45,802 bases of DNA from Gemmatimonadaceae bacterium (GTDB lineage Bacteria > Gemmatimonadota > Gemmatimonadetes > Gemmatimonadales > Gemmatimonadaceae). A model generated the notes under the pieces. The model saw nothing but the letters and a program-made list of their open reading frames with translations. It had not been told where the DNA came from and did not search any database. Shown piece by piece: positions 14,467 through 39,074 of the stretch (its first letter is position 1; every line of letters begins with the position of its first letter). The stretch spans positions 1-45,802 of the forward strand of contig JACMPK010000054.1 in assembly GCA_014377535.1 (NCBI GenBank), in the 5' to 3' direction. Both the position numbers and the translations under genes were made by a program.

Positions 14467-14546
14467 CGGGACAGGACCAGTGACAGGAACGCGCGAGCAG
14501 CATGCCGGCGCACAAATGTGAAGCGACCGTGCCGCGATGCGCATGC

Positions 14547-15119
14547 CTACCGGCCGCGCATCACCGGCATCCAGCGGGCAATTATTTCACGGCCGGGATA
14601 GCCGGGCACCGTCTCGACGATCCGACCCGAGCTGTCCGTGCGAGCGAAGACCGGCGTGCCCGGAATGCGGAAGGTGAGCAGCACCTGATCGCTGTCGCCA
14701 TCGGGGCCGCCGCTGAAGGCGCCACGCACACCCATGGCGGTAAGCATCACACGCCCCGCCGCGGCACCTTCCAGTGTGACGACGCGCAGCATCGGGACAC
14801 CGTCACTGCCCTGCAGGCCGGCAATGTCCTTGAGGGCCTGCCGGCAGAACGAGCAGGTCTTCGAGTTCACCATCAGGATCGCCGGACGGCCACGCGGCGT
14901 GAGCGGCACGCGCTGGTTTGCCGAGTCACGGACCAGCAGGCCCGTCACGGCGGCACGGGCCTGACCCACGGCTGGATCCTCGGCGGCGAGCGGTGGCGAC
15001 GCGGTGCGGTCCACGGCCACGCGTCCAAGCAGCGCGAGTCCGAGTGCGCCAGCGATCATCCACGCCAGCATCTCGCGGCGGGCGACCTTCGCTGGCGCTG
15101 GCGTCGGCAGGTTGGTCAC
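14547..15119 (-). CDS. Membrane-anchored thioredoxin-like protein
   Basis: This 190-residue protein has an N-terminal membrane anchor (MLAWMIAGALGLALLGRVAV) and an extracytoplasmic thioredoxin-like domain. ILMVNSKTCSFCRQALKDI gives a CSFC redox motif in the usual place after a beta strand, and FRIPGTPVFART is the cis-Pro loop (IPGTP). It is probably a thiol-disulfide exchange or cytochrome-maturation protein. GTG at 15119 lies 2 bp after the rsgA stop, so it is co-transcribed with rsgA. The longer upstream reading frame is antisense-like and overlaps rsgA, so it was not used. Confidence 0.75.
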   Translation of the reverse strand: MTNLPTPAPAKVARREMLAWMIAGALGLALLGRVAVDRTASPPLAAEDPAVGQARAAVTGLLVRDSANQRVPLTPRGRPAILMVNSKTCSFCRQALKDIAGLQGSDGVPMLRVVTLEGAAAGRVMLTAMGVRGAFSGGPDGDSDQVLLTFRIPGTPVFARTDSSGRIVETVPGYPGREIIARWMPVMRGR

Positions 15120-35663: not shown

Positions 35664-36866
35664 CTACTTCGAGCGTTCCAGCGCCTGCTCGATATCGGCA
35701 ATCAGGTCGTCGCGATGTTCGAGCCCCACCGACACGCGGATCATGCCCGGCACGATGCCGACCTGCACCCGCTCGGCCTCACTCAATTTGGAGTGCGTGG
35801 TGGAGGTGGGATGCGTCACGATGCTGCGCACATCGCCGAGGTTCGGCGTGTGCGAGAGCAATTCGAGCGCATCGATGAAGCGACGTGCCCGATCCAGTCC
35901 GCCCTTCAACTCCAGCACCACGATGCCACCGCCAGCCGACATCTGTCGCACGGCCAGCGCATGATCCGCGTGGCTCGCCAGGAACGGATACCGCACGAAA
36001 TCGAGCTCGGCGTGATCTTCGAAGTGCGTTGCGATTGCGAGCGCGTTCGCGCAGTGCCGCTCCATGCGGACCGACAGCGTCTCGAGACTTTTCGACAGCA
36101 CCCAGGCATTGAACGGCGAGAGCGCCGGACCCGTATGCCTGATGAAGAACCGCAGCTCGGTGATGAGGTCGGCGTTGCCCACGACGACGCCGCCGAGCAC
36201 TCGTCCCTGGCCGTCGATGAACTTGGTGGCGGAATGGACCACGAGGTGCGCGCCATGCTTCATCGGCTGCTGCAGCATGGGCGTCGTGAAGCAGTTGTCC
36301 ACCACGAGCATCAGTTCGTGCGCCGCGCAGAGCTGGCCGAGCATGTCGAGATCGATGAGTGCGAGCCCCGGGTTCGATGGCGTCTCGACGAACACGAGCT
36401 TCGTGGATGGCTGCACCGCCGCTTCCCATGCGTCTGCACTTGCATCCGCATCGACGTAGGTCGCCGTGATGCCCCAGCGCGGGAACAGCTTCGTGAACAG
36501 CTGGTGCGTGGAGCCGAACAACGCACGCGACGCCAGAACGTGGTCGCCGCTGCGCAGGAAGGCGGCCATGCTGCCGAAGACCGCTGCCATGCCGCTGGCA
36601 AAGGCGATACCGTCATCAGCACCCTCGAGCAGCGCCATCTTGCGCACGAACTCGTCGGTGTTGGGGTTGGAGTAGCGGCTGTAGATGTTTCCCTGCTCCT
36701 CTTCCGTGAACAGCGCGCGCGCCTGCTCGGCATCGTCGAAGACGAAGCTCGACGTGAGGTAGAGCGGCGTCGAATGCTCGCGTTCCGCGCTGCGCGGTGT
36801 CTGCGTGCGGATGGCGAGCGTCTCGGGATGCAGCGTGCGGGGCGTGCGATGGGGCTGGTCAGCCAC
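35664..36866 (-). CDS. metZ: O-succinylhomoserine sulfhydrylase
   Basis: MetZ is a PLP enzyme forming homocysteine directly from O-succinylhomoserine and sulfide. The 400-residue product has SRYSNPNTDEF (substrate Arg and Tyr), FASGMAAVFG, VDNCFTTPMLQQP with the PLP Asp, and the Lys215-containing HSATKFIDGQGRVLGG. The DGQGR pattern separates MetZ from cystathionine gamma-synthase and MetY. The GTG start at 36866 has AGG spaced about 6 bp before it, and no upstream coding region is present because the leader is a riboswitch and terminator. Methionine-cycle control by S-adenosylmethionine is thus expected. Confidence 0.93.
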   Translation of the reverse strand: MADQPHRTPRTLHPETLAIRTQTPRSAEREHSTPLYLTSSFVFDDAEQARALFTEEEQGNIYSRYSNPNTDEFVRKMALLEGADDGIAFASGMAAVFGSMAAFLRSGDHVLASRALFGSTHQLFTKLFPRWGITATYVDADASADAWEAAVQPSTKLVFVETPSNPGLALIDLDMLGQLCAAHELMLVVDNCFTTPMLQQPMKHGAHLVVHSATKFIDGQGRVLGGVVVGNADLITELRFFIRHTGPALSPFNAWVLSKSLETLSVRMERHCANALAIATHFEDHAELDFVRYPFLASHADHALAVRQMSAGGGIVVLELKGGLDRARRFIDALELLSHTPNLGDVRSIVTHPTSTTHSKLSEAERVQVGIVPGMIRVSVGLEHRDDLIADIEQALERSK

Positions 36867-36931: not shown

Positions 36932-36961
36932 AAAAGCCCGGCAGACAGGAGGCCGCCGGGC
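36932..36961 (-). terminator. Intrinsic terminator in metZ leader
   Basis: On the minus strand GCCCGGC (36961-36955) and GCCGGGC (36942-36936) form a perfect 7-bp stem with a 12-nt loop, followed by TTTT (36935-36932). It sits directly after the SAM-II aptamer and 66 bp before the metZ start, so it can act as the expression platform. Confidence 0.85.
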
Positions 36962-37018
36962 ACTCGCGGTTTAGCACATTCTTTTACGTGGCGGCAATCA
37001 GCGGCAAATGACCACGGG
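36962..37018 (-). promoter_or_regulatory. SAM-II riboswitch aptamer upstream of metZ
   Basis: On the minus strand P1 arms CGTGG (37016-37012) and CCACG (36991-36987) enclose a loop with ATTTG and ATTGC. This is followed by TAAAAGAATGT and the invariant GCTAAA (36975-36970). P1, the ATTTG..ATTGC loop, and the 3' GCTAAA are the defining SAM-II features as known from the metX/metA aptamers, and the pseudoknot pairing can be drawn between CGC in the loop and GCG after GCTAAA. It lies between a promoter and a terminator ahead of metZ, exactly where such a switch should be. Not verified by covariance model. Confidence 0.87.
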
Positions 37019-37035
37019 CTTCAGTTGTGAGGGGA

Positions 37036-37064
37036 GGGATACGCCTGCCGGGTGGTGCTGTCAA
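37036..37064 (-). promoter_or_regulatory. Promoter of the metZ leader
   Basis: On the minus strand TTGACA (37064-37059), a 17-bp spacer and TATCCC (37041-37036) give a good housekeeping-type promoter. The expected transcription start near 37028 is about 10 nt before the aptamer. Confidence 0.75.
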
Positions 37065-37225
37065 GGCGAGCCCGGCCCCATCACAGCCGTCGTGCCGGTT
37101 CCGCGATCGCTTCGACCAACGACACCGCTACCTCCCGGGTAACTGTTGGAGTGGCGAGCCGCAGTGGATTCGACCGCCACGACCCCGGCTCGCCTGGCCG
37201 GGACCAACATTCTCCGGAAACCAGC

Positions 37226-37696
37226 ATGATGCGTCACATGCGCGCGGCCGCACTCGGTGCGGCGCTCTTGATCGGTTCGACCGTATCCGTTGATGCACAG
37301 GGCGGCCCTCCCGGTGGCGGCATGCGCCGAGCGCCTGACGAGATGGCATTGCTGGCGAAGACGCTGGAAGGCGTGAGCGGGATCACCGACGCACAGGCAT
37401 GGTCGCTGGCCGCGCTCGAAACCGGATACAAGCCGAAGTTCATCACCGCGAGCACCGCAATGCGTGACGCGATAGTGGCCGCACGCCAAGCTGGTGGCCC
37501 GCCTGACATGGCCGTGATGATGAAGATGCGCGGGCAGATGGACGACATGTGGAAGGAAGAGCTGGCCGCGGCGCGTGCCATCCTGACGAGCGCGCAGCAT
37601 CCCAAATTCGACGAAAATGTGAAGGGTATTACGGCTGCTGATTCCGTTCGCGACGCGCAGATGCGTGAGCGGATGGGCGGTCGTCCGCCGGAGTGA
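37226..37696 (+). CDS. Secreted helical protein with LTxxQ-like motifs (copy 1)
   Basis: This 156-residue secreted protein (signal MRAAALGAALLIGSTVSVDA) is made of long helices. Two LTxxQ-like motifs are visible: GITDAQAWSLAALE (residue about 57) and ILTSAQHPKFDENV. It resembles the Spy/CpxP-like LTxxQ superfamily, small periplasmic helical chaperones or metal-stress proteins. The ATG at 37226 lies 24 bp after a hairpin (CCCGGC at 37184 to GCCGGG at 37202). A strong terminator follows, and two paralogous genes come next. The precise function is unknown. Confidence 0.75.
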   Translation: MMRHMRAAALGAALLIGSTVSVDAQGGPPGGGMRRAPDEMALLAKTLEGVSGITDAQAWSLAALETGYKPKFITASTAMRDAIVAARQAGGPPDMAVMMKMRGQMDDMWKEELAAARAILTSAQHPKFDENVKGITAADSVRDAQMRERMGGRPPE

Positions 37697-37720
37697 GCGG
37701 TCGTTGACACGGTGTCGTGA

Positions 37721-37762
37721 CGCGCGGCGGGTAATTTCAACTTGCCCGCCGCGCGTTTTTTT
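37721..37762 (+). terminator. Strong rho-independent terminator
   Basis: CGCGCGGCGGG at 37721-37731 and CCCGCCGCGCG at 37745-37755 form a perfect 11-bp stem with a 13-nt loop, followed by TTTTTTT at 37756-37762. It ends transcription of the first LTxxQ-like gene. Confidence 0.95.
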
Positions 37763-37825
37763 ACATTGCATCTTTTCGTGGGTTCAGCCTGATTGTGCGT
37801 GAAACGTCTCTTGAGGATTTCTCCG

Positions 37826-38332
37826 ATGCCGCGTTCCCGCCACATCCTTCATACACGCCGGCTGGCGCTCGCCGGCGCACTGGCACTCGGTGCGACCTTC
37901 GTCGCGACACACGTTGCGGGTGCGCAGGAAGTTGGAATGGGTTCCGCCGCCTCACGGCCCACGATCGAGGACCTGACGGCACAATGGGCTTCTGTGGAAC
38001 GCCCTCTGCTCGGCGTAACCGACCTGACCGACCTGCAGCGCGATGCGATCGAGCTGCTGGAGGAGAAGCATCGGAAGCTGTTCAACATCGAAGCCGGACC
38101 GATTCGGCAGGCACGCATCGCACTGCTGCAGCGCGGGCCGTTCGAGCGCCAACGCGTGGAGCAGGCGCTACAGCGCATGGTCGAGTTGCGACGCCGGGAA
38201 CTGCAGCTGCTGCGCGGGCTGCTGACGGATGCTCAGCGCGTCCGCTATGACGAGAACCTGAAACTAATGGCGGCAGAAGAGGCGGCGGCGGAAACGAAGC
38301 GGGATCGCGAGGCGGCGTTCGTGACGCCGTAG
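37826..38332 (+). CDS. Secreted helical protein with LTxxQ-like motifs (copy 2)
   Basis: This 168-residue secreted protein has a signal MPRSRHILHTRRLALAGALA and cleavage near AGAQE. It shows two motifs in the same order as copy 1: DLTDLQRDAIELLEEKHRKL and GLLTDAQRVRYDENLK. The second is nearly identical in pattern to the ILTSAQHPKFDENV of copy 1. ATG at 37826 has AGG spaced about 9 bp before it. Longer frames from 37793 or 37799 add residues before the signal. It lies between the terminator at 37721 and the third copy. Confidence 0.75.
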   Translation: MPRSRHILHTRRLALAGALALGATFVATHVAGAQEVGMGSAASRPTIEDLTAQWASVERPLLGVTDLTDLQRDAIELLEEKHRKLFNIEAGPIRQARIALLQRGPFERQRVEQALQRMVELRRRELQLLRGLLTDAQRVRYDENLKLMAAEEAAAETKRDREAAFVTP

Positions 38333-38486
38333 GTTTTCGGGTGGCGTGCCAGCTACGAATGGCGCCGAGACGTAACACCACCGGTGTGAAGGCGTTGCAC
38401 GACTGAAACCGTGGCACTCGTGCCGACAGTTCCGTGTACAGTGCAGATCTTGTGTAGTGTAAGTACGGACATTGACGGAGGATTTC

Positions 38487-39074
38487 ATGCCTAGCACGCT
38501 GCAGGCGGTCCTGTCGGCTGTCGCACTCGCTGTCGTCGCGGTACCGATTACTGAACTGGCGGGACAGCCGTCGGCCGCGTTCCGGCAAATTGAGGTCATG
38601 CGGATCGCAAAAACGGTGGAAGACCTGCGATACCACAGGGTTGTCGCCGGCTTTGCGAACCTCGAGCACCTGCTGCTGGACGTTCCAGACATCACGGACG
38701 CCCAGCGTGAACGAGTCGAGCGACTGGAACACGATGCTCGCGGCGAGTTCTTCCGTCTGGGGCTGCCGCTGCGCGAGGCTCGTCGCACCGTGCTGCGGAA
38801 GTGGCCAGTCGAGGACGACATTTATGAACGTTCGCTCAACGCGCTCATTGTGGCACAGCGGGAACTGTATTCCCAAGCGCGGGCGTCGCTGGATTCTGCA
38901 CAGGCAACGCATTTTGATCGGAACACCGTTCAATTCTGGCGTTCCGCTGAGGAGATCTGGCGTCCCGGGGGTCGCGGCCCGACGCCTGGCGGAACGACAG
39001 GCATCTGGGTTTGGACACTGTACGTCAACCCGTTTTTGCCGCTCCTTGCGCTGGATGCAGCCACGACTCCCTGA
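38487..39074 (+). CDS. Secreted helical protein with LTxxQ-like motifs (copy 3)
   Basis: This 195-residue protein is the most diverged copy. Its signal or anchor is TLQAVLSAVALAVVAVPI. The first motif is DITDAQRERVERLEHDARG, and the second SLDSAQATHFDRNTV is degenerate. A C-terminal extension with a hydrophobic segment (GIWVWTLYVNPFLPLLALDA) sets it apart. ATG at 38487 has an ideal GGAGG ribosome-binding site 5-9 bp upstream. It is separated from copy 2 by 154 bp, so it may have its own promoter. It is convergent with the FAD oxidoreductase. Confidence 0.72.
   Translation: MPSTLQAVLSAVALAVVAVPITELAGQPSAAFRQIEVMRIAKTVEDLRYHRVVAGFANLEHLLLDVPDITDAQRERVERLEHDARGEFFRLGLPLREARRTVLRKWPVEDDIYERSLNALIVAQRELYSQARASLDSAQATHFDRNTVQFWRSAEEIWRPGGRGPTPGGTTGIWVWTLYVNPFLPLLALDAATTP

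Follow-up and report, generated by a model that had tools for sequence, protein, structure and literature searches.

A predicted SAM-II riboswitch ahead of a metZ-like gene in a Gemmatimonadaceae bacterium, and its setting among the SAM-II loci of the phylum

Introduction

The SAM-II riboswitch class, with its pseudoknot, promoter and terminators, was described in 2005 (PMC1273637), and terminators have been noted as typical for it (PMC2258182). A 2007 survey reported the class in alpha- and gammaproteobacteria and in Bacteroidetes (PMC2258182), and a 2014 study of proteobacterial regulons detected SAM_alpha in no groups of its set other than Rhizobiales and Rhodobacterales (PMC4239095). In Sinorhizobium meliloti, metZ is preceded by a SAM-II aptamer and a terminator, and a leader RNA of about 100 nt increases at high SAM (PMC9373788). 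The metA gene of the same organism also has a terminator past its aptamer, which is not predicted to be SAM-controlled, and high SAM stabilises its read-through mRNAs (PMC9373788). Tandem SAM-II pairs are also known, 44 in number (PMC9481103).

The locus analysed here lies on the minus strand of a 45,802-nt stretch of DNA from an uncultured Gemmatimonadaceae bacterium, hereafter the window. It resembles the S. meliloti metZ unit (PMC9373788) in riboswitch class, type of target gene, a promoter just upstream and a terminator just downstream, and its leader is predicted to have approximately the same length of ~100 nt. In comparison with that unit, the window copy belongs to another phylum, has a much lower Rfam score, carries a P2 of CGC/GCG rather than of GGCC type together with a different loop, has its terminator directly after P2, with GCCCGG, and is absent at the metZ of two congeners. 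The alphaproteobacterial relatives of metZ retrieved for comparison carry SAM-II at 60-81 bits, together with a terminator.

The window locus also shares with the SAM-II element of Agrobacterium tumefaciens metA (PMC1273637) P1, pseudoknot P2 and the GCUAAA core, a near-consensus promoter a few nucleotides before P1, and an intrinsic terminator after P2. Target gene and lineage differ, and binding was shown for A. tumefaciens, whose 68-nt aptamer binds SAM at near 10 uM or tighter, whereas the window switch is predicted from sequence. In the described tandem SAM-II and SAM-II/SAM-V riboswitches (PMC9481103) the first unit is a SAM-II with a terminator, as in the window, but the window copy is single, with a tandem pair located elsewhere in the same genome. 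The combination of metZ, SAM-II and terminator is not a new design, having already been described in S. meliloti (PMC9373788); what is added here is the frequency of the terminator, the covariation between P2 and a terminator arm, and the presence or absence of the switch among congeners.

Results and discussion

Aptamer

The elements of the predicted aptamer are as follows.

36951-37025, minus strand: predicted SAM-II aptamer, match to RF00521 (SAM_alpha), 36.8 bits
37011-37016, minus strand: P1 5' strand CGTGGT, pairs with GCCACG
36987-36992, minus strand: P1 3' strand GCCACG, pairs with CGTGGT
37001-37003, minus strand: pseudoknot P2 5' strand CGC, pairs with GCG at 36967-36965
36965-36967, minus strand: pseudoknot P2 3' strand GCG, pairs with CGC at 37003-37001
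36994-36997, minus strand: conserved TTGC of the loop, whose GC pairs with the GC of GCTAAA
36970-36975, minus strand: GCTAAA core, from sequence and locus comparison

Inspection of the minus strand found every element listed in a preliminary description of this DNA in its place, including P1, the loop words (ATTTG at 37009-37005) and GCTAAA. P1 (CGUGGU/GCCACG) has six pairs, one of them U.G, and encloses the AUUUG...UUGC loop. The H-type pseudoknot P2 joins this loop to the 3' tail through CGC/GCG plus a GC/GC contact of UUGC and GCUAAA.

The preliminary assignment to the SAM-II class, with RF00521 as the proposed check, held: with its gathering score set at 36, the model gives 36.8 bits (E = 8.3e-5 for the window), and no other Rfam family matches anywhere in the window. 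Since this margin of 0.8 bit is thin, an independent covariance model was built from 48 aligned Gemmatimonadota aptamers, none from the window's genome, with P1 as the only structure encoded. It yielded 71.1 bits for the window site (36958-37019; E = 1.5e-16) and 10.1 for the runner-up site in the window. A chance resemblance, in which the element is a set of hairpins of a GC-rich intergenic region, would account for an RF00521 score so close to the cut-off, yet the difference between 71.1 and 10.1 bits excludes it, and the position and gene context agree with 100 other loci; we give it a negligible probability.

In the alignment of the 48 relatives, paired cells make up 99.7% of P1 and 94% of the P2 helix, and the covariation score exceeds all 500 shuffles. 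The third P1 pair covaries among relatives (UA/AU/CG). The outer P2 pair is C-G in 22 sequences, G-C in 17, A-U in one and U-A in one, and is unpaired in four; the four pair types are therefore direct evidence for the pseudoknot. A wider set of 101 SAM-II loci, the window locus included, was drawn from the window's own genome and from related genomes of the same order; TTGC/GCTAAA is found in 98 of these loci, and TTGT/ACTAAA in one.

The low Rfam score for the phylum and the absence of the switch at metZ in both congeners could also point to a decaying or non-functional copy, that is, a recently inserted riboswitch cassette that has lost SAM binding. Given that the window aptamer departs from the 48-sequence alignment at none of its invariant positions, that all P1 and P2 pairs form, and that the terminator and the antiterminator partner described below are intact, decay is very improbable. 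We consider the SAM-II class aptamer ahead of the metZ-like gene, a predicted SAM sensor, confirmed as real on these comparisons.

Promoter and terminator

Two further elements flank the aptamer.

37036-37064, minus strand: putative promoter, TTGACA (37064-37059), 17-nt spacer, TATCCC (37041-37036), from sequence and related loci
36936-36961, minus strand: predicted intrinsic terminator GCCCGGCGG-CCTCCTGT-CTGCCGGGC, followed by the T-run TTTT at 36935-36932, from a terminator scan and related loci

The promoter named in the preliminary description is present, with a perfect -35 and a -10 that matches at only three of six positions. It is not listed by a generic promoter scan, because the -10 is without its last T. 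A TTGAC stands 46-51 nt ahead of P1 in 40 of the 101 related loci, against a background of 3e-4 per nt, and is followed there by a -10 of the form T-A-n-n-n-T after a spacer of ~17 nt. Given this positional conservation, the window promoter is believable despite its weak -10.

The GC stem with TTTT (36961-36932) was likewise found as first described, its seven perfect G-C pairs being extendable to nine. The scan lists 36961-36936, yet 1.1 terminators are expected by chance in 2 kb, which makes this listing weak proof alone. When a terminator was defined as a GC-rich hairpin with a T-rich tail at most 80 nt past the aptamer, terminators were found 3' of the aptamer in 71 of the 101 loci, compared with a mean of 5.2 and a maximum of 9 in dinucleotide shuffles, and with 2 of 71 upstream control stretches. 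A terminator after the SAM-II aptamer is the rule across the phylum, and the transcription-terminating platform claimed for the window, between P2 and metZ, conforms to it. The window terminator starts eight bases past GCUAAA and abuts P2.

Candidate antiterminator and proposed mechanism

Two complementary strands link the aptamer to the terminator.

37000-37005, minus strand: candidate antiterminator strand GCCGCT, overlapping the P2 5' strand and complementary to GGCGGC at 36957-36952, from covariation and the free-leader MFE fold
36952-36957, minus strand: candidate antiterminator partner GGCGGC, in the terminator 5' arm and loop, from folding and covariation

The leader was folded with and without the aptamer constraint, as had been proposed, and the outcome agrees in part with a switch. 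In its MFE fold (-35.5 kcal/mol) the free leader forms neither P1 nor the terminator, and its GCCGCUG loop strand pairs with CGGCGGC of the terminator 5' arm. With P1 enforced (-33.3 kcal/mol) the terminator is back, and when the P2 strands are also masked, a crude proxy for the SAM-bound state, its probability is 0.99. Transcripts of 92-94 nt, however, prefer the terminator (0.83-0.92) even in the absence of the aptamer, and a length of at least 96 nt is needed for the antiterminator to prevail. Hence, folding energies alone are not decisive.

The energy of the loop/terminator duplex against shuffled arms gives a mean z of only -0.86 overall, and of -0.12 for metH-type leaders, which show no such complementarity; the covariation test was therefore relied on instead. 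The loop GCCGCC occurs with GGCGG in 24 loci and with CGCGG in none, and the loop GCCGCG occurs with CGCGG in six loci and with GGCGG in none (Fisher 1.7e-6, a value that ignores kinship and partly tracks gene type). A single locus pairs the loop GUCGCG with CGCGAC. Since the P2 5' strand (GCCGC[C/G]) can base-pair with the terminator 5' arm and covaries with it, it is probably the antiterminator. Given that metH-type leaders are without GCCGC/terminator-arm pairing, the strand-exchange design is not universal. The leaders of a congener's metY (L118) and of an ATP-grasp gene in the window's own genome (L114) are identical to the window leader at ~90 of 115 positions and have the same GCCGCC/GGCGGC pair and terminator, with a different downstream gene.

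The simplest reading is probably strand exchange, in which the P2 5' strand serves as an antiterminator that is removed once SAM closes P2. Transcription would begin ~10 nt ahead of P1. At low SAM, covariation and folding suggest that the loop strand GCCGC, doubling as the P2 5' strand, would pair with GCGGC of the terminator 5' arm, blocking the terminator and allowing metZ to be read. At high SAM, the ligand would bind the P1/P2 pseudoknot and sequester the GCCGC strand, the terminator at 36961-36936 would fold, and transcription would end ~95-100 nt from its start, before metZ. SAM-induced termination before metZ is likewise supported in S. meliloti (PMC9373788).

The switch could instead act chiefly at the level of translation or of mRNA stability, the terminator providing constant attenuation and a small leader RNA. 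This alternative has the S. meliloti metA precedent (PMC9373788) and the equilibrium preference for the terminator at 92-94 nt without ligand in its favour, but the Shine-Dalgarno GAGG (36875) lies ~90 nt beyond the aptamer core, far from P2, while the terminator abuts P2; moreover, covariation between loop and terminator is expected only if both strands compete. We regard this alternative as unlikely, and assign a probability of about 0.88 to the reading that the predicted SAM-II riboswitch represses metZ through transcription attenuation. The aptamer, the pseudoknot covariation, the terminator enrichment, the antiterminator covariation and the gene are shown here.

The metZ-like gene and the origin of its switch

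35664-36866, minus strand: metZ-like gene (homoserine-ester sulfhydrylase family), GTG start at 36866, GAGG at 36875-36872, PF01053

The product is a PLP enzyme of Cys/Met metabolism (PF01053, E = 4.5e-125). Among 53 NCBIfam models the best are O-succinylhomoserine sulfhydrylases, both slightly below their cut-offs (TIGR01325, 489.4 bits against 510.05; NF006003, 509.6 against 522). Because neither equivalog score reaches its cut-off, we label the gene metZ-like, with a succinyl or an acetyl ester as possible donor; the name metZ given to it in the preliminary description is fair in this form. The product shares 87% identity with its counterpart in Gemmatimonadaceae bacterium ES-bin-51, 74% with the one in Roseisolibacter sp. 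H3M3-2, and ~45-52% with alphaproteobacterial MetZ. Divergently from metZ, three consecutive short secreted-looking proteins with no Pfam match are encoded at 37222-39074 on the plus strand, the first of which is syntenic with metZ in the congeners.

A comparison of 32 metZ-like loci from the family and its neighbours shows SAM-II ahead of metZ in only two, the window locus and genome G016. Two congeners have the same upstream neighbour and an alignable intergenic region from which the stretch from P1 to the leader end (~160 nt) is missing; their SAM-II copies stand instead ahead of metX and metY, and their metY scores above the cut-off of TIGR01326. A close metY was not found in the window's genome, an assembly that is 90.6% complete, where the best match was metZ itself (43%). 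Given that both congeners share the locus without the switch and that the window's genome is without a close metY, this lineage probably acquired its metZ switch, the alternative being two losses. A recent transfer from Alphaproteobacteria is unsupported, the leader being closely similar to other Gemmatimonadota leaders.

SAM-II across Gemmatimonadota

SAM-II was found in 58 of 60 relatives and in 202 of 298 genomes sampled across the phylum, mostly ahead of methionine-pathway genes, and turns out to be the common methionine switch of Gemmatimonadota. SAM-I was found in four of the 60 relatives; the window's genome has no Rfam match to it (RF00162), and SAM-I in place of SAM-II was dismissed for this genome. 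A search for SAM-III gave no match, with the control equally silent.

The proposal that the window locus extends the known range of the class stands against the published papers found, but the phylum yields hundreds of examples with the Rfam model itself, and Rfam-annotated genome databases will therefore already show Gemmatimonadota SAM-II loci. A literature search of partial coverage found no report of SAM-II in Gemmatimonadota; given this partial coverage, and since Rfam's own model finds these loci, a first sighting is not claimed.

Downstream genes were named by protein matching, since choosing the longest ORF misnames genes in these GC-rich genomes. The first matched gene after the 101 aptamers is metH in 37 cases, an ATP-grasp gene in 11, a metY/metZ type in 10, metX in 9, hom in 7, thrC in 6, panB and metF in 4 each, sulfite reductase in 3 and an aminotransferase in 2; the rest are single other genes, and two have no match. 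Genes following these loci also include metB and metK.

About 12 loci (L114, L119, L121, L132, L134, L154, L161, L165, L173, L178, L185 and others) have a RimK-like ATP-grasp gene under SAM-II and, after it, a luciferase-like monooxygenase, whose nearest model is the dimethylsulfone monooxygenase SfnG, below cut-off. An FMN reductase precedes the pair in one locus, and in G016, G188 and Roseisolibacter the monooxygenase is followed directly by metZ. The arrangement suggests an operon for organosulfur scavenging controlled by SAM.

In four genomes (L120, L149, L186, L201), panB lies directly under SAM-II, twice with thrC after it; to judge by its sequence, this panB probably encodes ketopantoate hydroxymethyltransferase. 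In one of them, two back-to-back riboswitches (L120/L121; G003:C13:14227-14302, minus strand, and 14510-14583, plus strand) serve divergent genes, panB and ATP-grasp.

The window's own genome has two tandem SAM-II aptamers elsewhere (G000:C20:14247-14031, minus strand; L113 2448-2240, L252). The first has its own terminator, and the second has a U-A replacing the usual C-G contact. The pair heads a co-directional operon encoding a MoxR-like AAA_5 ATPase, a DUF2201/VWA protein and a divergent SAM-synthetase-like protein (PF00438, PF02773), a gene context that looks unusual; an ordinary second SAM synthetase is encoded on contig C163.

Significance

Taken as a single element the window riboswitch is ordinary, and its setting is more useful. 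We put at about even odds a broader picture in which SAM-II is the standing methionine/SAM switch of the whole phylum, strand competition is direct, with the P2 5' strand as the antiterminator, the unit travels from gene to gene as a ~160-nt cassette (in this case to metZ, apparently along with the absence of the congeners' SAM-II-controlled metY), and the regulon includes genes beyond known methionine metabolism, namely the ATP-grasp/SfnG-like monooxygenase operon, panB, and the MoxR-VWA-SAM-synthetase-like operon. From this setting, SAM-II would be the principal SAM sensor of Gemmatimonadota, and its approximately 100 natural variants allow the expression platform to be read by covariation. 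The setting also provides a clean natural comparison, in which one species has the riboswitch at a locus where its congeners have none, and flags genes of unassigned role as probable members of a methionine/sulfur regulon. Of these results, specialists may have use for the phylum-wide regulon and the antiterminator covariation.
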